The position numbers were made by a program, and so were the translations under genes. Below the pieces are notes generated by a model that was not told the origin of the DNA, made no database searches, and saw only the letters and a list, made by a program, of their open reading frames with translations. From Candidatus Baltobacteraceae bacterium (lineage in GTDB: Bacteria; Vulcanimicrobiota; Vulcanimicrobiia; Vulcanimicrobiales; Vulcanimicrobiaceae), in assembly GCA_036488875.1 (NCBI GenBank), contig DASXGW010000008.1, positions 124,001 through 188,000 on the forward strand: a DNA stretch of 64,000 bases. The letters run 5' to 3'. Below, in pieces: positions 1 through 47,864 of the stretch (within the stretch, counting starts at the first letter, position 1; each line of letters begins with the position of its first letter).

Positions 1-711
1 CGATTGATTGAGGTTGTAGCCGGATCCGAGCGGATCGAGCTTCGGATTGAGAAAGACGAGCAAGCGAGCTTTCTGAAACGGCTTGAGCACCGCGTTGGTG
101 CCGACGGCGGCCGCCGCGACGAGCACGACGCCGAACGCGTAAATCGCGAAGTCGCCGAGTCGCGGCAATCCGAAGAACAACACGGTACTCAATATCGCCA
201 ACAGCACGAGCGCCGTGCCGAGATCGGGCTGCTTGAGAATCAGCAGCGCCGGAATCGCGACGGTGAGCAGCGGCTTCCACAGATCTTGCAAGTTCTCGTA
301 CGTGCCTTTGCTCATCACGGCAGCCAACGCTATCGCCAAAATGAGTTTGGCCGGCTCGGACGGCTGGAACGTGCCGAACGGACCGAGCGAGATCCAGCGC
401 TGCGCGCCCAGCGCGCTGTGACCGCCGCGCAAAATGAACAGCAGTAAGAGCAGGTTGACGGCGTAAAGATACGGCGCCCACCGCTGCCAGTTGCGATAGT
501 CGACCAGCGAGAAGACGAACATCAGCGGAATGCCGAGCGCCACGTACATGATTTGACGGCGCGCCTCGCCGGCAAAAGCCGGATTGTGAAAACCGGCGGA
601 ACTGATGCACGCGATACCAATCAGCGTGATTGCGCTGCCGGCGATTGCGAGCGGCCAATTGAACGTGCGAGCGTAGCGCTTAGCGCTGCTGCGAACGGTG
701 AGTGTCGCCAA
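1..711 (-). CDS. rodA: RodA/FtsW-family peptidoglycan polymerase (SEDS), partial
   Basis: This is the N-terminal 237 residues of a SEDS-family membrane glycosyltransferase; the C-terminus lies beyond the left edge. Hydrophobic segments are regular, and three family signatures are readable on the minus strand: GAQRWISLGPFGTFQPSEPA near residues 102-121, KQPDLGTALV near 160-169, and FLNPKLDPLGSGYN near 220-233. RodA polymerises lipid II into glycan strands with a class B PBP during elongation. RodA rather than FtsW is preferred from the FQPSEPAKL and LDPLGSGYN forms, but this is not certain on a fragment. The likely start is TTG at 711-709, preceded by a GAGG ribosome site; no ATG is well placed. 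It follows minE by a few bases and is probably the last listed member of the min operon. Confidence 0.88.
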   Translation of the reverse strand, partial: MATLTVRSSAKRYARTFNWPLAIAGSAITLIGIACISSAGFHNPAFAGEARRQIMYVALGIPLMFVFSLVDYRNWQRWAPYLYAVNLLLLLFILRGGHSALGAQRWISLGPFGTFQPSEPAKLILAIALAAVMSKGTYENLQDLWKPLLTVAIPALLILKQPDLGTALVLLAILSTVLFFGLPRLGDFAIYAFGVVLVAAAAVGTNAVLKPFQKARLLVFLNPKLDPLGSGYNLNQS

Positions 712-29764: not shown

Positions 29765-30304
29765 TTATCGCATCGTGATGTGGATGAGCGAGATATCCGA
29801 ATCAAAGCTCGAGCCCGTTCCCTTGAAGCCGTTTGGCTCGACGATCGTCACGTTACCCTTTCCATGCAGCATTTGCGTCGTGTGATCGTACTCGAGCGTG
29901 TCGCACTGGAGCACGGTACCCGAACTCGAGTGCGCCACCACGCCGTTGAGCAGGGTTAGCGTGTTCGCCGTTTCGTCCGCGATGGCTTGCGGAGCTCGCG
30001 CGGTCATCGTGCTGCCGTCTTTGCCGTGAAACGTCACCGTCGCGTTCTGGAAGACGACGCGCATCCGGCCCTGCGGGCCCCGGCTCTCGAACGAGCTGGC
30101 GATCAATTCATACTCGATCCGGTTGTGAATTTGCAGAACGGACCGCACCGGCTGCTTCGCCGTGCCGTGACCCGTGATATGGAGCGCCGGTTGGGTCGGC
30201 GTGGCGACCGGGGAGCCCGTGGGACCGGCTGCGGTCTTTGGGGCTTGCGGGTTGCACGCGACGAGCACCAAAGCGGCCGCGAACGCCGCCGATCTGCGCG
30301 TCAC
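29765..30304 (-). CDS. LptC/LptA-type OstA-fold protein, predicted lipoprotein
   Basis: 179 residues from GTG 30304; the open frame extends far upstream but that part overlaps the ligase gene. The N-terminus [17 protein letters not shown] ends in a lipobox (LVAC), so the mature protein would start with a lipidated Cys. The rest is a beta-jellyroll of the OstA type: [40 protein letters not shown] and [35 protein letters not shown]. It is likely the periplasmic bridge for LPS. Whether it acts as LptC, LptA or both cannot be decided. GTGA overlaps the previous gene. Confidence 0.82.
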
Positions 30305-31515
30305 GCTTGGTCCCAATCGCGCGAGGCGGCGGCCAATGCAAAACCCATCGTGGGCATCCACAACCCGAAAATCACGACGCTCATCGTATCGATCAGGCCT
30401 TGCACGGCCACACCGGCGAGTCCCGCCGCGGCCGCAAGCGCGAGCAGCGCCGCCGCCGGCGGCACGTCGCGCAATCGGCGTCGTAAAGCCGCCGCGAGCG
30501 ACCACGCGTTCCACAAGAACGCGCCCAAACCCACAATACCGAGTTCGGCAAAAAACGTGAGATACAGACTGTGTGCGTGAAACGCCGTCGCGTCGGCGTC
30601 GGGAACGTGTACGACCGCGTACAGACGCGAGAAGTCGAACGGACCGACGCCCGTTAGCGGAAAGCGATCGATGATCTGCTCGGCGGCCTTCCAAATCGCG
30701 ACGCGCGTGTAGTCTTCGCTCGGATTGTGCTGGACGTTGAAGGCCAGCAGTACCGCAACGAGACCGGCCGCCACCACCGCCGCGGCGGCAGCCACGCCCG
30801 CGCGGCGGCGCGGCATCTGCACCGCGACCAAGAACGCGGCTGCGGCCGCGAAGCCCATCCACCCGGCGCGCGAATGCGTTTCGTAGAGCGCTACCAGGCC
30901 GACGGCGACCGCGATCCATCCTAGCGCGCGCAGCGCCGGGCCGCGCGCGATACGCGCGATCGCATACGCGATCGGAATGAAGACGACCAGGTACGCGGCT
31001 AGCTCGCCGGGCAGAATGAACGTTCCGGTGGCGCGGCCGTGCGAAATCGCGTAGAGCGCCGCAGGCCGGTGCGTTGCGACCATCGCGATCGCCGCCGCCG
31101 CCGCCAGCGTGCCGGAGACGAGATACGACCAAAAGATCGCCGGCGCAACGTTCTTATCGGCGAAGAAGCGCACGATCGCGCAATGCCACACGATGCCCAA
31201 TCCGAAAATGCCTACGAAGAGCACGCCGGCGGCCGGATCGAACCCGAGCAGCGCGCTGAGCATCGACGCGCCGAACCACGCCAGCATCGGCCACAGCAGC
31301 GGCTGTTCGACCGGTGCGCGATGAACGATCATCGTGACCGACGCGTAGATGGCGAGCAGCACCACGAAACCCAGAACGGCGTAGACGACCGGCGCCGGAA
31401 CCAGCGAAACGCCCGGATACGCGACGCTCGTGAGCGAGATGAACGCCGGAAACAGCGGAACCGCCGCATAGACTCCGGCCATCGCAGCCGGCATCAGCGC
31501 GCGTAAACTAGGCAC
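30301..31515 (-). CDS. O-antigen ligase/polymerase-family (Wzy/WaaL) membrane protein
   Basis: 404 residues from GTG 31515 (ATG 31494 is an alternative). About ten to twelve hydrophobic helices. The Wzy_C/WaaL signature is in the large periplasmic loop and after: ALYETHSRAGWMGF, NPSEDYTRVAIWKAAEQIIDRFPLTGVGPFDFSRLY, then FHAHSLYLTFFAELGIVG with the conserved His. Such enzymes attach or polymerise O-antigen on lipid A-core. It overlaps the LpxB-related gene by eight bases. Ligase versus polymerase is not resolved. Confidence 0.87.
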   Translation of the reverse strand: MPSLRALMPAAMAGVYAAVPLFPAFISLTSVAYPGVSLVPAPVVYAVLGFVVLLAIYASVTMIVHRAPVEQPLLWPMLAWFGASMLSALLGFDPAAGVLFVGIFGLGIVWHCAIVRFFADKNVAPAIFWSYLVSGTLAAAAAIAMVATHRPAALYAISHGRATGTFILPGELAAYLVVFIPIAYAIARIARGPALRALGWIAVAVGLVALYETHSRAGWMGFAAAAAFLVAVQMPRRRAGVAAAAAVVAAGLVAVLLAFNVQHNPSEDYTRVAIWKAAEQIIDRFPLTGVGPFDFSRLYAVVHVPDADATAFHAHSLYLTFFAELGIVGLGAFLWNAWSLAAALRRRLRDVPPAAALLALAAAAGLAGVAVQGLIDTMSVVIFGLWMPTMGFALAAASRDWDQA

Positions 31516-35763: not shown

Positions 35764-36597
35764 TTAGGCAACCTCTTTGACGCGCGAGCGCAGTTCGCGT
35801 GCGACCATAGCGTGCAGCTCGTGACCGCTCTTGATCGCGACGATCTCGCACTGCGGCCACGCACCCAGTAGGCAGAAATCGCCGATCAGGTCGAGCACTT
35901 TGTGGCGCACGACTTCGTTGGGCCAGCGCAAAGCCTGCATCGGACCGTCGGGAGCGAAGACCAGCGCGTTATCGAGACTCCCGCCCAATGCCAGACCGCG
36001 CGCGCGAAGCGCTTCCACCTCGTGGAGGTAGCCGAAGGTGCGCGCTCCGGCGATCTCGTCACGGTAGAGCGCCGGTTCGATCTCGCCGTAGAAGTACTGC
36101 GTGCCGATCGGCGCCGGAAAATCGGCGACGAAGCGCACGCGAAACGTGGAGGCCGGCAAAACGGCCACCATGCGATCGCCGCTTTGAATCACGAACGGTT
36201 GGCTGGGTGCGAAGACGCGGCGCGGCGCGGCTTGCGGAACGATTCCGGCCGATTCGATCGCGTCGAAAAAACCGCGCGCGCTTCCGTCGCCGATCGGGAT
36301 CTCCTTACCTTCGACGCGAATCTCGGCGTTGCTCACGCCGGCGGCCAACAACGCCGACAGCAGATGCTCGGTCGTGGAAACCGACGCGCCGTCGCGACCG
36401 ATGACGGTCGCGCGAGAAGTATCGATCACGTGCTCGGCCGTGGCCGGAACTTCGACCGTCTTGCCGCCTGAAACGAGCGTGAACGCAATGCCCGAATCGG
36501 GCTTCGCGGGCATGACGTCGACGACGGCGTTCGAACCCGTGTGAAGACCGACGCCTTCCAAGTGCACCGCTTTGCGCAGCGTCCTCTGTTCGTTCAT
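35764..36597 (-). CDS. lpxC: LpxC, UDP-3-O-acyl-GlcNAc deacetylase
   Basis: 277 residues. KAVHLEGVGLHTG at 8-20, STTEHLLSALLAAGVSNAEI with the first zinc His, and VVRHKVLDLIGDFCLLG with the other zinc ligands (H and D). Committed step of lipid A synthesis. It overlaps lpxD by one base (TAATG). Confidence 0.96.
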   Translation of the reverse strand: MNEQRTLRKAVHLEGVGLHTGSNAVVDVMPAKPDSGIAFTLVSGGKTVEVPATAEHVIDTSRATVIGRDGASVSTTEHLLSALLAAGVSNAEIRVEGKEIPIGDGSARGFFDAIESAGIVPQAAPRRVFAPSQPFVIQSGDRMVAVLPASTFRVRFVADFPAPIGTQYFYGEIEPALYRDEIAGARTFGYLHEVEALRARGLALGGSLDNALVFAPDGPMQALRWPNEVVRHKVLDLIGDFCLLGAWPQCEIVAIKSGHELHAMVARELRSRVKEVA

Positions 36598-37622
36598 TAC
36601 GGCTCTTCTTTGCCGAGGCGTTTCTCGAGCGCTTCGACTCGTGCGACCAGCTTGGGCAGCTTACGAATCAGGACCTCTCGTCGAAGATCTTCGCGGTGGT
36701 CGCGCGCCGGATTCCCCGATATGGTCGCGCCGTCGGCAACGTCGCCCCAAACGCCGGATTGGCCCGCGATGGTGACGCGATCGCCGACGCGCATGTGCCC
36801 GCGCGTGCCCACCTGGCCGGCGATTTTGACGTAGTCGCCGATCACCGTCGAACCGGCCATTCCGGTAAGCGCCGCAACCGCGCAGTGTTTTCCGATCCGG
36901 CAGTTGTGTCCGATCTGCACGAGATTGTCGACCTTCGTGCCCGTACCGATGTGCGTGCTGCCGGTTTGCGCGCGATCGATGCACGTGTTCGCGCCGATTT
37001 CCACCTCGTCGTCCAGAACGACGTTGCCGACTTGCGGGATGCGCTCGAGCGCACCCTCGATAAACGCCCAGCCGAAGCCCTCGCTGCCGATCACGCTGCC
37101 TGCGTGCAGAACGACGCGATTTCCGATCCGACACCGTTCCATCAAATGCGCGTGCGGATGCAGCCACGACTCCTCACCGATGGAGGCTCCGTCGCCGACG
37201 TACGCGCCCGCACCGACGATGCTTCGCGCGCCGACCGTCGCGCCGTGACCCACGTACGCATGGGCGCCGATGTAAACGCCTTCGGCAAGCGATGCGTCCG
37301 ATTCGACGGCCGCACTGGGATGGACGAACGGACCTTGCGGCCGTTTCGGACGCAGGTCGCGCAACAGCCGCGCGAGCGCGTACCGTGCGTTCTCGACGAC
37401 GATGAGCGGCTTTGGAGGCGCGTCGATCGGAATCGTCGCATCGACGAGCACCGCGGCCGCCTTGCCGGCGAGCGCGGACGTCAAATACCGCGCGTCCGTA
37501 GCAAAGGTCAGCGCGCCGGCACCGGCCTCCTCGACCGCAACGATGGAATGGATGGCAACGTCGCCGTCACCGACGACGCGTCCGCCGACGCGGGAGGCGA
37601 GCTGTTGCACCGTACCCAGCAT
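36597..37622 (-). CDS. lpxD: LpxD, UDP-3-O-acylglucosamine N-acyltransferase
   Basis: 341 residues: an N-terminal uridine-binding domain (about 1-100), a hexapeptide-repeat beta-helix (about 105-310; GHNCRIGKHCAVAALTGMAGSTVIGDYV includes the catalytic His), and a short C-terminal coiled coil. It adds the second acyl chain after LpxC. It is the first lpx gene, 25 bases after the last OmpH-like gene. Confidence 0.96.
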   Translation of the reverse strand: MLGTVQQLASRVGGRVVGDGDVAIHSIVAVEEAGAGALTFATDARYLTSALAGKAAAVLVDATIPIDAPPKPLIVVENARYALARLLRDLRPKRPQGPFVHPSAAVESDASLAEGVYIGAHAYVGHGATVGARSIVGAGAYVGDGASIGEESWLHPHAHLMERCRIGNRVVLHAGSVIGSEGFGWAFIEGALERIPQVGNVVLDDEVEIGANTCIDRAQTGSTHIGTGTKVDNLVQIGHNCRIGKHCAVAALTGMAGSTVIGDYVKIAGQVGTRGHMRVGDRVTIAGQSGVWGDVADGATISGNPARDHREDLRREVLIRKLPKLVARVEALEKRLGKEEP

Positions 37623-37647: not shown

Positions 37648-38058
37648 CTACGATCCGCTCGGCGCGGGCGAAGCCTTCTCGACGATGTTGAGGCTCTTTT
37701 CCACGTCGGGCGTGATGTCGACGCCGCCGTAACCGACGCCCTCGCGGGTTACCACGAGTTTCAACTGCTTATCCGAAGCGATCTTGCCGGCGGCGTCGCG
37801 AATCTGCTGCGTCAACTGCTCGGTGATCTTCGAATACTTGCGCTGCATCGCCAGCACGGCTTGCTGCTTCTGTGCGGTGCTGCCCCTGCCCTTAGCGATG
37901 CGGTCCTCGTCGGCGTACAGTTGACTCTGATAGCCTTGATATTCCGGCCAATTGTTCACGATGCGGTTCACATCGACGAGTCCGATCGGACTCGACGCTC
38001 CGCAGCCGGTTGCAATAACGGCCACTAGGGCCGCCAAAATGATATGTTGTTTTTTCAC
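37648..38058 (-). CDS. OmpH/Skp-like lipoprotein (short)
   Basis: 136 residues. Lipobox IATGC at about 15-19 after a hydrophobic signal. A small OmpH domain: IGLVDVNRIVNNWPEY, a coiled coil (about 45-90) and KLVVTREGVGYGGVDITPDVEKSLN. Skp chaperones outer-membrane proteins in the periplasm; membrane anchoring would be unusual for Skp. It is the third of three paralogues, directly before lpxD, overlapping its neighbour by four bases. Confidence 0.82.
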   Translation of the reverse strand: MKKQHIILAALVAVIATGCGASSPIGLVDVNRIVNNWPEYQGYQSQLYADEDRIAKGRGSTAQKQQAVLAMQRKYSKITEQLTQQIRDAAGKIASDKQLKLVVTREGVGYGGVDITPDVEKSLNIVEKASPAPSGS

Positions 38059-39335
38059 TCGTGTAGGCTTTCGACGTCTTTGGTTACTTCGTTCGTCATA
38101 TCGTAGCCGCCCGGAGCGGCGTCGGGTCCGTTGAAGACGATGCTGAATCCCTGATCCTTGGCGATGCGGCTCGCTTCGTTTTGGATCTGATTGACGATCT
38201 CATTATAGAGGTCGTCGCGACGCTTTTGCAGAGCGTCGAGTTCTTTGGCGGCCGCGCCCGTGGCACCAACGTCGGCACCGTGCAGGGCGGCGAACTGACG
38301 ATCGAGATCGTTCTTGGTCGCGGTGTATTCGGCGATCGTCTGGGACGCGTCGGCACGAAACTCGTCGGTCAGCTGGTTGTGAATCTGCGCGATTTTCGCT
38401 TTGACGTCGGGCGGCAGGTTCGACGGAAGCGCCGGCGGTGCCAGCTGACGGATTTGCGCCCCGACCTCGTTGCGGCGTTCTTCGATCTTGCTCTGCGTCT
38501 GCGACTGAATCGTCGAGAGCGCGGCCTGCACCTGCGAGTTGGTCTGATCGTTGAGCTGCTTGCGATACGCGTCGAGCGCGGCTTGATCCGTCTTGCGCAT
38601 CGCGTTGGTTTGCGCGGTTTCCTTCGAATCGATGGCGGCGAGCTGATCCTGCAGCTGCTTGCGCGTCGCCGGTTCGAGCGCGAGGTTGTTCAGCCGCGTT
38701 TTGATCGCCAGGCGCTGCTGGGCGTCTTCTTGCGACAGCCGCATCGACAGATCCGTTTCCTGCTGCGCGAGCTGCTCGGCCTTCGCGCGAAGCTTCTGCT
38801 CCCCTTGCAGCTGCAGCTGGCGCACGATCGAGGCCGCCGCCGCGCGATTCTGCTCCACGACGCTCTTCTGGTACGCCTGAAAATCCTGGCCGGCAGCCTG
38901 CGCGGCTTGCTGCGCCTGCTGCGCCGACGTCGCCGACATCAGCTTCGACGCGAACTCACCCGCGCCCGGGACGTTGGCCGCCGTCAACGCTGCCGCGATC
39001 GCCTGCTGTTCGCGCTTGAGATACGTCTGCTGCTTCTGCTCGATGATCTTGCCGGCGCGGTCGTTGGCGGCTTGCATTTCGGCGTTGAGCTCTTTGGTCT
39101 GCGCCGCGATCTGCGAAGCCGACAACGGAACGTGCGGAGTCGAGGCCTTCAGCTGAATAGCCGAGATCGCGTCGTCGAGCTGCGAGAGCTGCGAATAGAG
39201 CGGGTGATGCTTGACCACGTCCGACACCCGCACGTACCCGATGCCGCGAATCGACGACGAGTGCACGTTGGGACCACATCCGCTCAAAAGAACGAACGCG
39301 AGCGCCATCAACGCCGCCGTGTTATTTGAGCTCAT
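38055..39335 (-). CDS. OmpH/Skp-like lipoprotein with extra-long coiled coil
   Basis: 426 residues from ATG 39335; upstream frame is rejected because it overlaps the neighbour. A lipobox (LLSGC) is near residue 20. An OmpH start GIGYVRVSDVVKHHPLYSQL is followed by about 300 residues of coiled coil rich in Gln, Ala and Lys, then DQGFSIVFNGPDAAPGGYDMTNEVTKDVESL. Ordinary Skp is about 160 residues; here the arms would be far longer. It may span much of the periplasm (inference). Confidence 0.8.
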   Translation of the reverse strand: MSSNNTAALMALAFVLLSGCGPNVHSSSIRGIGYVRVSDVVKHHPLYSQLSQLDDAISAIQLKASTPHVPLSASQIAAQTKELNAEMQAANDRAGKIIEQKQQTYLKREQQAIAAALTAANVPGAGEFASKLMSATSAQQAQQAAQAAGQDFQAYQKSVVEQNRAAAASIVRQLQLQGEQKLRAKAEQLAQQETDLSMRLSQEDAQQRLAIKTRLNNLALEPATRKQLQDQLAAIDSKETAQTNAMRKTDQAALDAYRKQLNDQTNSQVQAALSTIQSQTQSKIEERRNEVGAQIRQLAPPALPSNLPPDVKAKIAQIHNQLTDEFRADASQTIAEYTATKNDLDRQFAALHGADVGATGAAAKELDALQKRRDDLYNEIVNQIQNEASRIAKDQGFSIVFNGPDAAPGGYDMTNEVTKDVESLHE

Positions 39336-40122
39336 TTTGGACATCGGCAGTGATGTCCGTGCCCCCATAGAGAACGTCGGCGCGGTCGATGACGAGCAAG
39401 ACGTTGTGCTTGCGCGCCGCGTCCGCGGTAGCGGTCTTCGTGGCATCGACCAGCGGCTTGAGCAGCTGCTCTTGCTTATCGGAAAGCGTCTTGTTGTAGT
39501 CTTGGTAGACCTGTTTCTTGTCGGCGTCGGTCTTCGCAGCGGCGAGTTTCGGCCCGAAGAGGGCGCGCTGCGTCGACGCGTACTGCGCCATCTGATCGTT
39601 GGCCGACTTGACTTTGGGCATGCCGTCGAGCGCGGTTTGATCGACGAAACCGATCTCCGAAGGCGCCGGCGTCGCAGCCGGCGGCGAGATCGCCTGATTG
39701 CTCGAGAAGAGCGTTTCGACGTCCTTGGTGATATCCTGACCGCCGTAGATCACGATGCGTTTGTCGACCACGATCGAAAGGTTGCGCGTGGTGCAGACCG
39801 CCGCGATGGCGAGTTGCGCGCGCTGAAAGACCGGTCCGACGATCTCCCGCTGCTTGTCGCTATATTGCTGTTGAAACTGCATCTGGATGCGTTGCTTGTC
39901 GGCGTCGCTCCTGGCATTTTTCATGGTCGAGGCGAACTGCGCGTCGAGCTGCTGTTTGTAAGCCGCCAGCGTTTGATTCGCCGAAACGAAGACGGGCATG
40001 TTGGCGAGCTCGGCCTGGTCGATATATCCGACGTCGGAGAGATCGGCCGCGATGGCCGCGGGCGCGACGAACGCCGCGATGAGTAACGCGGCGGCGATAG
40101 TAGTAGCTAACCGGATCTTCAT
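39322..40122 (-). CDS. OmpH/Skp-like periplasmic protein with two tandem OmpH domains
   Basis: 266 residues from ATG 40122 (AAGG seven bases upstream). Signal peptide to about 24 (ends AIAAD). Domain 1 begins VGYIDQAELANMP and ends YGGQDITKDVETL; domain 2 begins IGFVDQTALDGMP and ends YGGTDITADVQNEL. The clear internal duplication makes one chain equal to two Skp subunits. It follows bamA by 37 bases, as skp does in many diderms. Confidence 0.85.
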   Translation of the reverse strand: MKIRLATTIAAALLIAAFVAPAAIAADLSDVGYIDQAELANMPVFVSANQTLAAYKQQLDAQFASTMKNARSDADKQRIQMQFQQQYSDKQREIVGPVFQRAQLAIAAVCTTRNLSIVVDKRIVIYGGQDITKDVETLFSSNQAISPPAATPAPSEIGFVDQTALDGMPKVKSANDQMAQYASTQRALFGPKLAAAKTDADKKQVYQDYNKTLSDKQEQLLKPLVDATKTATADAARKHNVLLVIDRADVLYGGTDITADVQNELK

Positions 40123-40159: not shown

Positions 40160-42430
40160 CTAAAAGCTTTGACCGATGCCGAAACTCGTGTGAGTGCCGC
40201 TGGCGCCTCGAGCGAAGTCGATGCGAATGGTGTGCAAGCCGAGTTGAGGCACGTCGAAGCGAATGCCGACGCCCGCGTCCCCATACAACGCCCAGTTTCC
40301 CGGATAGCCGACGATTCGGTTCGTGTACGGGTTGAGCAGTGGGTAGGCGCCGCGGATCTTGTAATCGAGCTCGTCGACGAACAACGCGAGCGTTAATCGC
40401 CGGTCCAGCGCCAGCGGCTGGCGCAGCTCGATCTGACCCAAGAACGCATTGGTAGCGTAGAACACCTGATTGTAGCCGCGCATCTGCTGGTCGGAGAACG
40501 TGAACAACTGACTCGGCGGAATGACGCCGGTCGAACTGTACGCGGCTCCGTGCACGCCGATCGTCGCACTATGCAGTATGGGGAAGAAGCGCGCGGCGTC
40601 GAGCGTCTCCTGTGTGAAGTCGAAGTTCGAGCCGAGCGACGGAACCGACAACTGCGCCGAGAACTGGGCTTTGAGGCCGGTGCGCGGGTTGAACGGATCG
40701 TCGAGCGTCGTCGACTGAAGCCCGACGGTTGCCGTGTTGAGCTTGTAGGGCGCGCCGGTGTTGACGTTCGCGATCGAGGTCGCGTTGATGCCGAACGAAC
40801 CGCCGCCGCAGTTCGTTCCGCTCGACAGCGGGCTGCACGACGGCTGCGGCAACACGTTGAGACCGCTTTGATTGCCTTGGAAGTAGTACGGCGTCGGAAC
40901 CGACGTGTCATAACGGATCGTCTGCGCGCCGCCCGCCAGGGTGAGAATCGTGTAATCGCTCAAACGGCGGCCGACCGTGACCGATCCGCCGGTAGCGCTC
41001 GACTCGCTGGTCGCAACGATGTTGTTGACCTGCGACGACGTCGACGTCGGATAGAGCGTGACCGGAACACAGTTTTGGTTGGATTTACACCCGATCGACG
41101 TGATGCCGCTCGACGAGACGTTGTACACCGGATAGTAGTAGGTCGAGCTGTTCGTGAACAGCGAGCCCGAGAGGCTGTACTTCATCGCCTGCGGCGTCGT
41201 GCCCAGGTACGGAACCGACGCGGAGAGCTGCGCGACGCTGGTGCGCGCGCCTTTCTCGAACTGAATCGAGGCCGAGTTTCCGGTGCCGTGCAGGTTATTG
41301 TCGGAGAATCCGAGCGTGCCGTACAAACCCTGTCCGGTCAGACCTCCGGAGTATCCAAAACCGACCGACGCTTGCGCGGTGCGCTGCTCCGTAACGTGCC
41401 ACACGACCGTCACCAGCTGCGGCTTCTTGGGATCCGGGCCTTCCTTGATGTCGGGCTCGATCTTCGAGAAGAAACCCAGCGCGTTGAGGCGCTCGTAGTC
41501 GCGCTTGATCGCGTCGGTATTGAGCACTTGGCCGGGCCGTACGCGCAGCTCGCGGCGAATGACGGCATCCTTCGTGCGCGTGTTGCCGGTGATTTCGACC
41601 ACCGCGACGCGCGCGACGTAGATGTTGTACTTGACGGCGGCCGTGCCGGCTTTGAGGTCGATCGACGACGGATCGATGCCGCCTTCAAAGTTGCCGACCT
41701 CGAGATGGTACTTGTCTTCGTAGAGCTTCTGCAGCGCCTTGAAGTCCGCGTCGCGCACTTCGTCGGAATACACGCTGCCGGTTTTGAGCGTCAGCGACGG
41801 CAAGATCAGCGGAGGCGGCAGAATCGGGTCGCCGCCGATGATGATGTCCTTGACGACGAGGCCTTCCTGAACGAACAGGGTCAACGAACCGGTCTTCGGA
41901 TCGAGGTTGAGATCTTTGACGTGGGTCGGGACCTGGCCGCCGTAGCCGATTCGCTCGTAATAATTGTTGATCTTGAGAACGTCTTGCCGGAACGTATTCG
42001 TGTTGAAGACCTGCCCGACGGAGAGGTCCATCAGTGCCAAGAGCGTGTCGCTGGGGACCTTCTGGTTTCCCTGGAAGTCGATCTTGGTGATGACCGGGTT
42101 CTCGATGACGCGATAGGTGATGGCCACGCCGTTAGGACGCGGACGCACCAGCGGCGGCGCGATATCGGCGAAGTATCCCAGGGCGTTGATGCGCGCGAGG
42201 TCTTCCTGAACGACCTTCGGGTCGTAGAAGTCGCCCGGCTTCGCCTGAACGACGGCCATGATCGTCTGCGTCGGTACGTGCAGGTTGCCCGTCACGTCGA
42301 CGGAGACGATCCGCGGCGGCGTCGCCGAGGAAGCAGGGGCAACGATGAAGCCGACCGACAGGATGACCGAGAGCAGAGCTCCCGCCCACCTTGTTAGTGC
42401 GCGCAAGCACCGCCGAAGGTCAAAGGTCAT
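40160..42430 (-). CDS. bamA: BamA, outer-membrane protein assembly factor
   Basis: 756 residues. Signal peptide to about 36. Four POTRA-like domains at about 38-110, 111-190, 192-282 and 284-360 (each with the GN or GD strand, e.g. VTGNLHVPTQTI, FQGNQKVPSDTL, ITGNTRTKDAVIRRELRVRPGQ). The beta-barrel is at about 365-756, with SVGFGYSGGLTGQGLYGTLGFSDNNLHGTG, QMRGYNQVF (the VRGF/Y loop motif) and a C-terminal GIGQSF ending in Phe. It folds outer-membrane proteins. It follows tamB. Confidence 0.95.
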   Translation of the reverse strand: MTFDLRRCLRALTRWAGALLSVILSVGFIVAPASSATPPRIVSVDVTGNLHVPTQTIMAVVQAKPGDFYDPKVVQEDLARINALGYFADIAPPLVRPRPNGVAITYRVIENPVITKIDFQGNQKVPSDTLLALMDLSVGQVFNTNTFRQDVLKINNYYERIGYGGQVPTHVKDLNLDPKTGSLTLFVQEGLVVKDIIIGGDPILPPPLILPSLTLKTGSVYSDEVRDADFKALQKLYEDKYHLEVGNFEGGIDPSSIDLKAGTAAVKYNIYVARVAVVEITGNTRTKDAVIRRELRVRPGQVLNTDAIKRDYERLNALGFFSKIEPDIKEGPDPKKPQLVTVVWHVTEQRTAQASVGFGYSGGLTGQGLYGTLGFSDNNLHGTGNSASIQFEKGARTSVAQLSASVPYLGTTPQAMKYSLSGSLFTNSSTYYYPVYNVSSSGITSIGCKSNQNCVPVTLYPTSTSSQVNNIVATSESSATGGSVTVGRRLSDYTILTLAGGAQTIRYDTSVPTPYYFQGNQSGLNVLPQPSCSPLSSGTNCGGGSFGINATSIANVNTGAPYKLNTATVGLQSTTLDDPFNPRTGLKAQFSAQLSVPSLGSNFDFTQETLDAARFFPILHSATIGVHGAAYSSTGVIPPSQLFTFSDQQMRGYNQVFYATNAFLGQIELRQPLALDRRLTLALFVDELDYKIRGAYPLLNPYTNRIVGYPGNWALYGDAGVGIRFDVPQLGLHTIRIDFARGASGTHTSFGIGQSF

Positions 42431-42472: not shown

Positions 42473-42580
42473 TCAGCGCAGGCCGGCGCGCGGAGCACGC
42501 CCCTGACGACCCGGCACGCCCTGTTCGCCCTGCTGTACCCCGGTCCTTGCCTCGGTCCAAAACCCTGAACGTTTCCTCAT
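42473..42580 (-). CDS. Possible 35-residue basic protein coupled to tamB
   Basis: On the minus strand ATG at 42580 overlaps the tamB stop as ATGA and opens a frame of 35 codons ending at TGA 42473. The product begins MRKRSGFWTEARTG and is very basic (eight Arg, one Lys) with many Gly and Gln. No signal or membrane segment. The overlap is the type used for coupling elsewhere in this operon. It fills most of the 146-base tamB-bamA gap. It may be a leader peptide or chance frame; I rate it weak. Confidence 0.3.
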   Translation of the reverse strand: MRKRSGFWTEARTGVQQGEQGVPGRQGRAPRAGLR

Positions 42581-45500
42581 AAATACCTCTGGAGCTTGAA
42601 GCTGAAGCCGCTGGTGCCGTAGATCGGCTGACCCAGGAGCACCGTCTGGTTATAACCGAGCGCCTGCGCCGGCGTCGTGTCCAAGAGTTTGTATGGGCCC
42701 GTCTGATAAAAGAAGCTGAGCGTCGCGGACGTGTACTCCGACGGGTCGACCTGGATCCCGAACGACTGGATCTGCGGCAGCCCGAAGGTGGTCGCGTAGA
42801 CGGCGCTCACGGCCTTGCCCAACACGCGCGTCGCCGTGACGCCGACGTTTCCGTAATAGCCCAACGAGAGATTAACGCTCGAGAGCCCCAGACCCTGACC
42901 GAGGGCGTTCTCAACCGGTCCGAGCAGGCCGGCCGTAAACTGCGCGTTGAGGATATTGAACGCTTCCTGGCCGACCGTGATCGTGCCGTTGCGCTGCAGG
43001 TCGTAGATTCCGGGCAGCGGCTGGAGCGCGCCGTACGGGGTGATTCCGCCGGGTGACTGCACCTGCACGACACCAGCGCTATTGAAGGCGATCCCGCCTA
43101 GGAACCCGCCGAAAGGCGCGAGCATGGCGATCACTTGCTCGCGCGTGTAACCGGCGGGCACCGTCGTGAAGCCGATCTTGAGATTTTCGATCTGACCGTC
43201 GACGTTGATCGTGATCTGCGCGCTGCCGTATGGGTTGCGCGCGCGATCGGGATCGGGATTGACCACATTGGTCGTTCCGACCGCGTGGATCGTCGGCAGC
43301 AAGCCGGAGGACGGATCGAACTGCACGCTGCCTTCCTGAACGCGGAAGGCGCGGTCGAAGTACGTAAGCGTCCCACCCGAAGACGTAAACCCTCCGTCGA
43401 GCGTGGGCTTTGCCAGCGTACCGCCCAAACGCACGGCGCCCGTTGCGCCGATGTCGAGCCCCGCGCCGTAACCGTTGCCGCGGACGCGTACGTTCTTGCC
43501 CGCGACGGCCTTGAAATCGAAGCTCATCGGAATCTGCGGAAGGCCGCCGGCCGCGCCGCCCTGCGCGGCGTTGATGAACGCCACGAACGGAAGCGTCGCA
43601 TTGCTGAGCACGGCGCTCCCCGAAAGCAACGCCGAGGAGTTCGGCGTCTTGGTCAGCGCGATATCGGCGTCGATGGTTCCCGTACCGAACGACGGTAAGT
43701 CGAGCTGCGCGCCCTTCGCGACGGCCTTCACGACAAACGATAGGCCGCGTCCCTTCGGAAACTCGACGTTGCCGGAACCGCTGAGCGTGCCGCCGCCCAA
43801 ACGCGCGGAAACGCGTTGAATCGACGCGGTCGTTCGATTAAATGAAAGGCTGGCGACGGTCTGCGTGATTGCCACGCGCTCGATGTTGCTTACGTACGAA
43901 CCGTTGGTCAGCGACGCGTGGCCGATGACGACCGGCTCGCGCACGGTTCCCGAAATGCCGAGATGGCCGTTGATCGTGCCGCTCATTTTCGTGTCGTTCC
44001 CGAGCACGCTGTCGAAGATCGACGGATCGAGATCGAGCACGTCGACGTCGACGCTCACGGGCTGATTGAGCGGACCGACGCGCAGCGGCGAGAGCTCGAG
44101 CGGAACCGATCCGGCGATCGACGCTTCACCCTTGGCAAACGTCGCACCGGCATTGGAGAGCACCAGCGTGTTCCCGCGCAGGCGTACTTCGCCGAAGAGC
44201 GATGCGATCGCCATGTTATACGCCAGCACGTTGGTTGCGTCGATTCCCGCGCGGAACTCCGGCGACTTGACGTCGCCGCCGATCTGCAACGTCGATTCAA
44301 ACGAACCCGAAACCGGAAGGCTTACGCGCGTGAGCTGATAGACCAGCCGCGGCAGATCGCCGGTCGCCGCGTGAACCGCCACGTCGAGTTTGTCGGCCGG
44401 GCGTAAGCCGAACGATCCGTTTGCAGATAGGGAGAGTCCGGGTGTGACGAGCTCGGCGTGATCGAGCGCGATGCGCCGGCCGATCGAATGGAGCGCCACG
44501 TCGGCGGTGTCGAGGGTTAGTGGACCGAGCGTACCGCCGTCGACGCGCGCTGCGGCGCGCAGACCGATCGCCGGCATACGCCCGACGATCGTGGCGTTAC
44601 CCGATGCGCGGCCGGTGATCGGCACCCGCTGCAACCCCAACGCCGGAACCCATAACGACAGATCGAGATCGGAAACGGTGCCGGTGAGATTGAAACGCGA
44701 GTCGAGCAAGCTCGACTGCAGCGTTTTGCCCGAACCGATGCCGATCGATCCGTGCGCGCGCAGCATACCTTCACTTCCGCCGACCGCTACCGATCCGTTG
44801 ATGACGTCGCGCGCGCTCGACCACGTCGCGCGCGTATCGCCGATGGGAAAGTTCCGGTACCGGAAGCCGTACACGTCGATATCGCCGCTGGTCGTAAAGC
44901 GTCCGGCCTGTTGCGTCGCCGCGATCTTCACGCGGCCGGTGCCGGCCAGCGTATCGCCCGTATCGAAGAAGTTATTGAAATCGGAGAGCGTCGCGTCGGG
45001 CGCTACGACGTGCATCTCGTTGGTGTGCGGACGCACGATCGCGCTGAACGCGGCGCGCGTCGATCCGACTCTGACTTTGCCGCCGGTAATGCTCACGCCG
45101 GTTGGATCTGCATCCAGGGTAGCGCTGCCGTTGACGAACGGCAGCCCGTTGACGTCGCCGGCCGGGACCCCGATATTCCCGCTGACGTCGGGAGCGACTC
45201 CGCGGCCGCCGAGATGCAGCCGAGCGTTGAACGAGCCGTCGGTCATGTAGTTGGGAAACGCCAGCGAGTGCAGCGACGCCGCGATCGGGCCGGCCGGGAC
45301 GTCGGCGTCGATCGAGTACGTCGGCGCGTTGGACGTCAGCGATCCGATGCTTCCATTGACGTATGCATAGGATGGCCCCAGCGACGCCGTCATGCGGCTC
45401 AAATACGCGGTGTCGCCGGAGAGCCGAACGTCGCCCGCGCCGGAGATGTCGTACTGCTGCATGCGGCCGTGCGCGATCGCGACACCGCCGTTGAACGTGG

Positions 45501-47808
45501 GTATCGGTACGCCGCCGGCCAGATCGCCGCTTGCATCGAGCGTGCCTTTGGAGAACGGCAAACCGATGCCGCGGAGCTGCGCGGAGTTCAATCCGCGAAC
45601 GACCAGCGAGAGCGCGTGCGACGTCTGCGGCGGGTTCCCGACCGAGAACCTTCCCGCCGCGACGACGTCACCGCCGGCGGCGCGTGCGTGCGCCGAATAG
45701 ACCTGCAAGTCGTTGCCTTCGACGGCGAGCGTGATCGAAGCGCGATCGATCGGAATGCCGTGCAAGGTCGCGCGCCGCATCTTCAAGTCGACGCCCTGAA
45801 CGACGATGCGATTCCCTTCCACCGCGATTGCGGCCGTGCCGGCCAGCGAACCGTGTCCGGGAATCGAGCTGCCCAAGAACGGCTGCAGCCCTTCGAACGT
45901 GCCGCGATAGTTGCCGCGAGCGACGAACGCTTGCGTCGAGAACTGTCCGGCTCCGTCGAAGACGCCCCACGGACCGGACGCGTGCAGCAGATTGATCGAC
46001 GCACCGGCGAGCGTTCCCGAGAACGCGCCGTTCATTCGATCGAACTTGACGCCCGCGATATCGGTGCGCTCGGCGCCGAACAACCCGGCGAGCACGATCT
46101 GTTTTCCGGCGCCGCCGCCGGCCATGGTTATGCTGACCGCGTCGCCGTTGATTTTCGGCATCTGCGGCAGCTCGAGACCCGGGAACGCCTTATACGTCGG
46201 CGCGCGCATACGCAGGCCGCTCGCGAGCGCCCAAAAGCCGCTCGCGTCGTGCGGACGATCCAAGTAGTACCCGCCGTCGAAATCGCCGCGCTCCGTGTGG
46301 AACCAAAACGGCTCGACGTTTCCGGTTCCGTTGGGCTCGAGATCGATCATTGCAGCGACGCGGTTGACGCCGCGCGCCGATGCGAGGGCGCCGCGCACGT
46401 GGAAGAGCAGATCGTTGCCCACCGCATCGGCGTCGACGATTACCGGCTCGCGGCCGAGCATCTCGTCGAGATACGGCAAGCGGTCCGCCGAACCGACGAT
46501 GTGCATCGCCAACTCGGAATGCAGCTTCTTGCCGAGCAGCATCGTTCCGCGAATCCCGACTTCGGTTCCGCCGTAATAGGCGTGCAACGGTGCGTAGGCA
46601 AGCGTGTTGTCGTGATAGACGATGCCGGCCTCGAGCGCATCAAAAGGAAGCTGCCGGTAGATCGTGCGCTGCGCGCGGGCCCGCGCTAAGATGAGCGGAT
46701 TATCGATCGGACCTTCGACCAGCACGCCGAGCGCCGTCGAGCCCGAGATCGGCTGGTCGCGCGTGAACGTAAACGCGTGGCGCAAGTCGTGCAGGTCGCC
46801 CGTTCCCCACACGCCCAAACGCAGCTGCGCACCGCCGGTGAGCTGGCCGGTGAGATCGTAGATCCCGCCCGTGACCTCGAGCGGAATGCCCGACAGCGTA
46901 CCGTCGACGCGCTTGAGGAAAAACGCGTTATCGACCAGCTGCAGATGTCCGTGAATGTTTTCGAGCGGCTGCGCGAGCGACGACAGCGCCATCCGGCCGC
47001 CATCGATGTCGAGCGTCAAGTTGACGTGGTAGCTCGGCGCGACGTTGGGCCGAACGTCGAGCGAGTACAGGCGCGCGTCGAAGTTGCGCGCGCGTCCGCG
47101 CAGAATCCGCACCGCCGGCGTATCGGCAAAGTAGTTTGCGAGCGCGCGCAGCGGAAAGCGCGGTGCGAGCATGCGGTGCATCGCGTAGCTGCGGATCGAG
47201 TCGATTCGTCCGGCGATCGTGAACGGTTCGTCGCGGCGCTCGCGGAAGATTCCGCGCGCTCGATAGCTCGTGACGGCCGCGCTGTCGACCGACGCGTCGA
47301 CGTTGAAGTCGCGCACGAGCACGTCCTTAGCGCTCGGATCAAAGGCTTCGGGTTCGCGCAGCTCGAGTGAGGCCGAGTGCATGCGCACGAAAAATCGCAG
47401 CGGCACCGTTACCGGTGCCTGCGGAACCGGCGGCCCCGGCGGGCCGCCGCCGGGAATGTTGAAGTTGTACGTTCCGTCGCGAAACTTCACGATGGTCAGC
47501 TTCGCGCGCGTGATTTCGATGCCGGTCAAGCCGAAACGATGCACGCTGCCCGGCAGCAGATCGCGCAGCGAGTAGTGAACGTCGATGCGGCGCGCGCCGA
47601 GCAACGGGTATCCCCGGTGCGACACGCGGACGTCGAAGAGCGAGAGTTCGTCGCCGGCGACGTGCTGGTCGGCCAGTGCAATCGTGTAACCACTCGCCAG
47701 CCCGCCGATGGTTTGGATGGAATAGCGCAAGATCTCGTGACGGTTGACGATCACGAACCCGATGCCGGCCGCAACGACCGCCAACACGGTCATCCATCGC
47801 TTGCGCAT
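42577..47808 (-). CDS. tamB: TamB-like translocation and assembly module protein (DUF490)
   Basis: 1743 residues from ATG 47808. I prefer this start over ATG 47856 because the intervening stretch is a hairpin and the N-terminus MRKRWMTVLAVVAAGIGFVIVNRH gives a proper signal anchor. Almost all the rest is repetitive beta-strand sequence of the AsmA/TamB type, forming a long hydrophobic-groove beta-taco. The C-terminal DUF490 region has SGGTLTYFDRAFRVQEGSVQFDPSSGLLPTIHAVG and GYTREQVIAMLAPFGG. TamB-like proteins move phospholipid between membranes. It is directly followed by bamA, the usual OM cluster pairing. Confidence 0.92.
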   Translation of the reverse strand: MRKRWMTVLAVVAAGIGFVIVNRHEILRYSIQTIGGLASGYTIALADQHVAGDELSLFDVRVSHRGYPLLGARRIDVHYSLRDLLPGSVHRFGLTGIEITRAKLTIVKFRDGTYNFNIPGGGPPGPPVPQAPVTVPLRFFVRMHSASLELREPEAFDPSAKDVLVRDFNVDASVDSAAVTSYRARGIFRERRDEPFTIAGRIDSIRSYAMHRMLAPRFPLRALANYFADTPAVRILRGRARNFDARLYSLDVRPNVAPSYHVNLTLDIDGGRMALSSLAQPLENIHGHLQLVDNAFFLKRVDGTLSGIPLEVTGGIYDLTGQLTGGAQLRLGVWGTGDLHDLRHAFTFTRDQPISGSTALGVLVEGPIDNPLILARARAQRTIYRQLPFDALEAGIVYHDNTLAYAPLHAYYGGTEVGIRGTMLLGKKLHSELAMHIVGSADRLPYLDEMLGREPVIVDADAVGNDLLFHVRGALASARGVNRVAAMIDLEPNGTGNVEPFWFHTERGDFDGGYYLDRPHDASGFWALASGLRMRAPTYKAFPGLELPQMPKINGDAVSITMAGGGAGKQIVLAGLFGAERTDIAGVKFDRMNGAFSGTLAGASINLLHASGPWGVFDGAGQFSTQAFVARGNYRGTFEGLQPFLGSSIPGHGSLAGTAAIAVEGNRIVVQGVDLKMRRATLHGIPIDRASITLAVEGNDLQVYSAHARAAGGDVVAAGRFSVGNPPQTSHALSLVVRGLNSAQLRGIGLPFSKGTLDASGDLAGGVPIPTFNGGVAIAHGRMQQYDISGAGDVRLSGDTAYLSRMTASLGPSYAYVNGSIGSLTSNAPTYSIDADVPAGPIAASLHSLAFPNYMTDGSFNARLHLGGRGVAPDVSGNIGVPAGDVNGLPFVNGSATLDADPTGVSITGGKVRVGSTRAAFSAIVRPHTNEMHVVAPDATLSDFNNFFDTGDTLAGTGRVKIAATQQAGRFTTSGDIDVYGFRYRNFPIGDTRATWSSARDVINGSVAVGGSEGMLRAHGSIGIGSGKTLQSSLLDSRFNLTGTVSDLDLSLWVPALGLQRVPITGRASGNATIVGRMPAIGLRAAARVDGGTLGPLTLDTADVALHSIGRRIALDHAELVTPGLSLSANGSFGLRPADKLDVAVHAATGDLPRLVYQLTRVSLPVSGSFESTLQIGGDVKSPEFRAGIDATNVLAYNMAIASLFGEVRLRGNTLVLSNAGATFAKGEASIAGSVPLELSPLRVGPLNQPVSVDVDVLDLDPSIFDSVLGNDTKMSGTINGHLGISGTVREPVVIGHASLTNGSYVSNIERVAITQTVASLSFNRTTASIQRVSARLGGGTLSGSGNVEFPKGRGLSFVVKAVAKGAQLDLPSFGTGTIDADIALTKTPNSSALLSGSAVLSNATLPFVAFINAAQGGAAGGLPQIPMSFDFKAVAGKNVRVRGNGYGAGLDIGATGAVRLGGTLAKPTLDGGFTSSGGTLTYFDRAFRVQEGSVQFDPSSGLLPTIHAVGTTNVVNPDPDRARNPYGSAQITINVDGQIENLKIGFTTVPAGYTREQVIAMLAPFGGFLGGIAFNSAGVVQVQSPGGITPYGALQPLPGIYDLQRNGTITVGQEAFNILNAQFTAGLLGPVENALGQGLGLSSVNLSLGYYGNVGVTATRVLGKAVSAVYATTFGLPQIQSFGIQVDPSEYTSATLSFFYQTGPYKLLDTTPAQALGYNQTVLLGQPIYGTSGFSFKLQRYL

Positions 47809-47827
47809 GCCTATCGGCCTATTACCC

Positions 47828-47854
47828 GCGGCCCCCGAGGGGCCTTCGGGCCGC
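47828..47854 (-). terminator. GC-rich hairpin between gyrB and tamB
   Basis: Seven-base arms GCGGCCC and GGGCCGC pair, 10 bases after the gyrB stop and just before the tamB start. The run after it is not T-rich, so it may be a weak terminator, attenuator or mRNA-stabilising hairpin. It is the only structural break between the replication genes and the envelope genes. Confidence 0.35.
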
Positions 47855-47864
47855 ATTAACGGGG

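Follow-up and report, generated by a model that had tools for sequence, protein, structure and literature searches.

The window, a stretch of 64,000 nucleotides (G000:C8:124001-188000) within a 3.7-Mb genome of the phylum Candidatus Eremiobacterota (Vulcanimicrobiota), carries on its minus strand a block in which tamB and bamA are followed by three consecutive genes of the OmpH/Skp family and then by lpxD and lpxC (Table 1). Its near relatives, by name, are Ca. Eremiobacterota, Vulcanimicrobiota and WPS-2 assemblies. The three OmpH/Skp genes, here called tandem, long and short, are tightly packed: 37 nt separate bamA from the tandem gene, the tandem and long genes overlap by 14 nt, the long and short genes by 4 nt (the GTG start of the short gene overlapping the stop of the long one), and 25 nt lie between the short gene and lpxD. 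The initial annotation, which had placed three distinct family members at 37648-40122, gave their coordinates and lengths correctly. BamA is the sole Omp85 match in the window's own genome (G000), and with tamB, bamA and several skp copies adjacent, lpx genes as neighbours and a single BamA, the locus has the make-up of the ancestral TamB-BamA-Skp cluster. Near the lpx genes, a long ORF at 29765-31132 (minus strand) matches LptC (PF06835) in its C-terminal part.

Table 1. Features of the OmpH/Skp block in the window and of the related loci discussed in the text (E-values follow the profile named).
Feature	Position	Strand	Details
TamB, upstream of bamA	42577..47856	-	1759 aa; PF04357 1.1e-23
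BamA (POTRA + Omp85 barrel)	40160..42430	-	756 aa; PF07244, PF01103, TIGR03303 4.9e-67
Tandem OmpH/Skp	39322..40122	-	266 aa; Sec signal (AIA/AD); two OmpH domains (about 30-141, 156-266)
Long OmpH/Skp lipoprotein	38055..39335	-	426 aa; arms 47-215 and 222-395
Short OmpH/Skp lipoprotein	37648..38058	-	136 aa; GTG start; PF03938 4.4e-10
LpxD, directly downstream of short	36597..37622	-	PF04613 1.3e-13
LpxC	35764..36597	-	PF03331 7.2e-87, match at G000:C8:159791-160588
Second TamB locus	G000:C7, L188:1344-7090	-	others: L189, L190, L191
Tandem-long fusion	L234:3145-4728	+	directly after bamA; LpxC present
Tandem-long fusion	L235:6706-8274	-	directly after bamA; LpxC present

Profile comparison places all three products in the OmpH family (Pfam PF03938). 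The tandem protein matches in two stretches (1.3e-18, over the cut-off) and the short protein also scores over the cut-off; the long protein matches at 2.9e-6, its 28 bits falling below the cut-off of 32.4 when taken alone and passing when summed with its in-frame neighbours. Compared directly by hhalign, the long and short families match with 97% probability (E 8.8e-11). The signature GG.D[IM]T.[DE]V, by which the initial annotation had linked the ends of these proteins, has four occurrences over all six frames of the window, each inside one of the three OmpH genes, and is present in none of 100 simulated first-order Markov windows; since E. coli Skp reads DITADV at the equivalent end of the alignment, however, this is by sequence comparison a signature of OmpH proteins in general. 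Two other assignments were discarded, a weak cross-match of the tandem protein to DUF1525/TIGR03757 where OmpH scores far better, and a match of the short protein to gephyrin in the PDB at the level of chance (E 0.1). A plasmid search returned no match to the tandem protein, and a phage search none to the short protein. The best 80 of 216 loci confirmed in a genome scan for relatives are almost all titled Vulcanimicrobiota or simply bacteria. Two contigs titled Rhodospirillales (L145 and L166) hold the bamA-Skp cluster of this phylum in highly similar form, and their labels look wrong; a single assembly (JAQBPM) contributes two differing bamA-type contigs (L157 and L162) and may be mixed or hold two BamA genes.

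Read from the sequence, the tandem protein has a Sec signal and no lipobox, and the long and short proteins carry LLSGC and IATGC, which we take to be lipoboxes; with a Sec signal or a lipobox on each, as judged by eye and with a crude script applied to relatives, all three appear to be exported to the periplasm. The anchor cysteines are invariant, Cys20 in 44/44 aligned long rows and Cys19, together with Trp37, in 34/34 short rows, and the earlier description of two lipoproteins beside an unanchored two-domain protein is borne out. Across the window's class, the same crude rule combined with reading yields a secreted, soluble tandem protein and lipoproteins for the other two: the script scored 32 of the 36 long ORFs and 31 of the 34 short ones as lipoproteins, the remainder having a lipobox-like site on reading, and classed 27 of 35 tandem ORFs as SPI, six as 'TM?' and two as 'lipo', with the six 'TM?' ORFs ending in signal-peptidase-like sites when read. 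(One ORF of 562 aa, L036, first counted as long, is an over-extended short ORF and was relabelled in this recount.) In deeper classes the usual anchor of the tandem protein is a lipid or an N-terminal membrane helix, again by crude rule and reading, and in several deep genomes the long protein has an N-terminal membrane helix and no lipobox. Because the anchor of the tandem protein differs between classes, a particular gradient of anchors is not a conserved design; the graded scheme from inner membrane to BamA put forward in the initial annotation is nonetheless plausible.

None of the 58 genomes of the phylum that were searched matches LolA (PF03548), LolC/E (TIGR02212) is over the cut-off in one, and the Lol system is reported absent in Terrabacteria in the available portion of one study (PMC10665443), so that a start at the inner membrane is plausible and inner-membrane anchoring of the long and short proteins seems likely. 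Weak matches to LolA_like (PF17131) in 42 of the 58 genomes (E<=1e-3; 14 over the cut-off) keep outer-membrane sorting possible. They lend something to an alternative in which the long and short proteins are outer-membrane lipoproteins and accessory subunits of BAM, comparable to BamB-E but built on Skp folds, as does the encoding of both directly after bamA and the presence of Gly, not Asp, at position +2 of each, Asp at +2 being the residue that retains lipoproteins in E. coli. The LolA and LolC/E searches and the reported absence of Lol speak against this alternative, and the lipobox-free membrane helix on the long protein of several deep genomes fits the inner membrane; we regard it as quite improbable.

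Structural models were AF2 monomers of the tandem and long proteins, the short protein being placed by profile. The tandem model (pLDDT 87) consists of two strand-hairpin-strand units, and Foldseek ranks 1-6 for it all go to Skp/OmpH chains, at E-values that are modest (0.075-0.27) and with probabilities between 0.84 and 0.99; VIA superposes its second domain on SkpA (8gl8_C; Z 7.8, rmsd 2.4, 112 residues) and on Skp (1u2m_B; Z 7.7). In the long model (pLDDT 83, pTM 0.52) an N-terminal strand (31-36) and a C-terminal strand (397-402) enclose helices at 47-63, 73-119, 135-215, 222-296, 309-352 and 359-395, with a tip near 216-221 and prolines (67, 70, 123, 222, 300-309) at the helix breaks and the tip. 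Its best 50 Foldseek matches are generic coiled coils, with no Skp among the matches listed, and the match to Skp surfaced only through VIA re-alignment, in which 110 of the 116 residues of E. coli Skp 1u2m_B are covered by the model range 31..422 (rmsd 4.2; Z 9.6, within the range that VIA flags as doubtful for helical models). Such a Z is unconvincing by itself, and it is the near-full coverage of Skp by both ends, taken with the profile match to the short family, that argues for a Skp fold. Because the alignment runs from 31 to 422, the two ends jointly make up the body of a Skp, into which the middle is inserted as a hairpin; as modelled, the long protein is one Skp body with an enormous helical insertion. 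The 'very long coiled coil' of the initial annotation therefore holds for the arms, of about 170 residues each, and falls short as a description of the whole, and the absence of an OmpH fold, which that annotation had named as grounds for its own rejection, is not what the model indicates: terminal strands around a helical hairpin, the OmpH body, are seen both here and in the second tandem domain. At 1.5 A per helical residue an arm would measure ~25 nm if straight, an upper estimate given that the proline hinges and the pTM of 0.52 leave its course across the hinges loose.

These architectures extend well beyond the window. Of 98 genomes from the phylum, 96 have a match to PF03938, and the order tandem-long-short is kept in 35/35 regions of the window's class (families f1-f3, window included). 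Among 25 regions from deeper families, four are cut before the long gene, and the other 21 all have a long-type ORF between the tandem and short genes, with a C-module profile match in 16 of them. One of those 16 (G002, L067:3546-5026, minus strand) has its long gene split into two ORFs of 154 and 339 aa, either a fault of assembly or a genuine break. The core of the long protein measures 389-406 residues in 48/48 loci. In a tree of 99 modules (95 columns kept; N-terminal module missing in 23/99 rows; bootstrap not settled), the first tandem domains form a clade (98/84), and so do the first and second tandem domains taken jointly (99/94) and the long genes as a whole (100/98); the short proteins and the second tandem domains are not single clades (two changes each). 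The grouping of the first-domain, tandem and long lineages suggests that the duplication into tandem, long and short forms is probably older than the divergence of the families sampled, for which the tree, with few columns and an unsettled bootstrap, is support and not proof.

Another account is ordinary redundancy, in which three Skp copies with overlapping holdase roles have drifted in length and anchor with no division of labour. Such drift would suit the differing anchors of the classes, and diderm Firmicutes commonly have more than one Skp copy behind BamA, as given in the accessible parts of two studies (PMC5007114, PMC5491611). Every type, however, keeps its own architecture, order and lineage across the phylum, and the near-constant core of the long protein likewise runs counter to free drift, leaving redundancy a slim chance.

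The tandem and long genes are joined in one deep genus, where the gene after bamA encodes a tandem-long fusion of 522-527 aa (G006 and G010; tandem part, residues 1-184; long part, 187-521), the proteins of the two species being 51% identical; in G014, of the same family, tandem and long are separate but overlapping genes. At the fused locus there is no short gene, and TamB is not detectable in these two genomes. With no PF03938 match in either, family f9 had seemed to lack OmpH altogether, and the divergent fused protein found in the bamA neighbourhood put an end both to that reading and to the idea that TamB and OmpH had been lost together. Because they are fused in this lineage, the tandem and long proteins probably act as one physical unit.

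A different association is seen in four of the 58 genomes (G000, G030, G042 and G055), the only ones with a second, separate TamB locus. In all four, the gene directly after this TamB (1512-1557 aa) encodes an OmpH of the long type (350-389 aa), none of the four pairs has an Omp85 next to it, and this OmpH groups with the long lineage (100/98), not with the tandem or short proteins. The arrangement ties the long type to TamB, if not strictly, given the fused lineage without detectable TamB. It also furnishes the strongest rival to the reading we prefer, namely that the long protein is primarily a partner of TamB, a tethered strut or lid along the beta-taco that would aid transfer of lipid or other substrate, leaving only the tandem and short proteins to serve BamA. 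The four genomes with a second TamB are exactly those with a TamB-long pair lacking an adjacent Omp85, the lineage of that OmpH is as this rival would have it, and TamB of Veillonella is implicated in lipid traffic in the available text of PMC10665443. Yet the genomes without detectable TamB still hold the fused tandem-long protein beside bamA; TamB and the Skp cluster are not neighbours in several deep genomes (at 6 of 30 TamB loci, neither bamA nor OmpH is adjacent within the retrieved flank); and the lengths of TamB and the long protein correlate weakly (rho 0.32, p 0.026, n=48 loci, in statistics that ignore kinship; a TamB ORF was found at 57 loci, and L115, at 1058 aa probably truncated, was kept). 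On balance we consider a primary role with TamB unlikely. The notion that the two lengths are matched as a ruler was rejected on the same correlation.

The reading we prefer, and to which we give about an even chance, is that a divided, partly tethered set of Skp chaperones serves the cell's single BamA/TamB machine. Tandem, long and short proteins would each form Skp-like trimers, the long and short lipoproteins staying at the inner membrane, on its periplasmic side, at the place where clients emerge from the Sec channel; the arms of the long protein, with their proline hinges, would offer a deep cage or a rail in the direction of the outer membrane, and clients would be passed to BamA by the tandem protein. 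SurA_N matches occur in 18 of the 58 genomes, three over the cut-off and none in G000, and much of the chaperone load may therefore fall to Skp-type proteins. A bolder and clearly less probable version, in our view a long shot, makes the long protein a periplasm-spanning, inner-membrane-tethered Skp whose trimeric arms would serve as a conduit between the Sec exit and the outer membrane, with TamB bodily involved and the tandem Skp as its BamA-side end; the second TamB with its long OmpH would then be a minimal, Omp85-free version of a chaperone bridge across the envelope that has so far gone unrecognised.

The only Skp of E. coli is soluble, with a single domain and about 160 aa. The proteins of the window share with it (1u2m, 1sg2) the family, the strand-hairpin-strand body and the C-terminal DIT-x-DV motif, and differ in number and build, one being a tandem protein and the other two lipoproteins, of which the long one has arms several times the length of those in E. 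coli. The contrast with the single Skp of Proteobacteria, drawn in the initial annotation, is thus accurate, but clusters with several Skp genes after BamA had already been described: as far as the accessible text of these reports goes, in Negativicutes and Halanaerobiales as many as three Skp copies, with lpx genes, come after TamB-BamA, and BamA is single (PMC5007114), and Veillonella parvula has four Skp genes, three of them after bamA (PMC5491611). The general arrangement is therefore known. Compared by description alone, the Skp proteins of those clusters may differ from ours, as neither tandem domains nor arms of great length nor lipid anchors are mentioned in the same portions of the two reports. 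SkpA of Bacteroidota (8gl8), the closest structural match to the second tandem domain, is part of the extended translocon of type 9 secretion, whereas the gene here lies in the bamA block. The elongated MlaD of Veillonella, as portrayed in the available portion of PMC10665443, is similar in logic only, a long helix letting an inner-membrane protein reach the outer membrane; its fold and family are unrelated, and it serves lipid transport.

What appears to be new is the division into tandem, long and short forms and the very long, tethered Skp; in mostly open-access literature searches, no description turned up of a tandem, lipid-anchored or so long-armed Skp, of the tandem-long fusion or of the pairing of TamB with a long OmpH. 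The route of unfolded barrel proteins and of lipids through the periplasm, in deep diderm phyla that lack the proteobacterial helpers, is a wider question, for which the three-part Skp set, the possibly periplasm-crossing tethered Skp, the tandem-long fusion and the Omp85-free TamB-long pair supply concrete partners. The set suggests that Skp has split into specialised, anchored forms outside Proteobacteria. Some of these forms escape standard annotation, Pfam overlooking both the fusions of G006 and G010 and the long gene of one deeper locus (L077) among those scanned.

The deep-branching genomes also vary downstream. Six of their loci (L078, L081, L083, L084, L086 and L087) have two consecutive short lipoprotein genes between the long gene and lpxD. 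In deep families (L071, L073, L075, L076, L077, L086, L087, L090 and others) lpxD is followed by a conserved gene of ~600 aa with a C-terminal motif like LPEASSCYP, often with lpxC next to it; in the window's class this gene is absent from that position.
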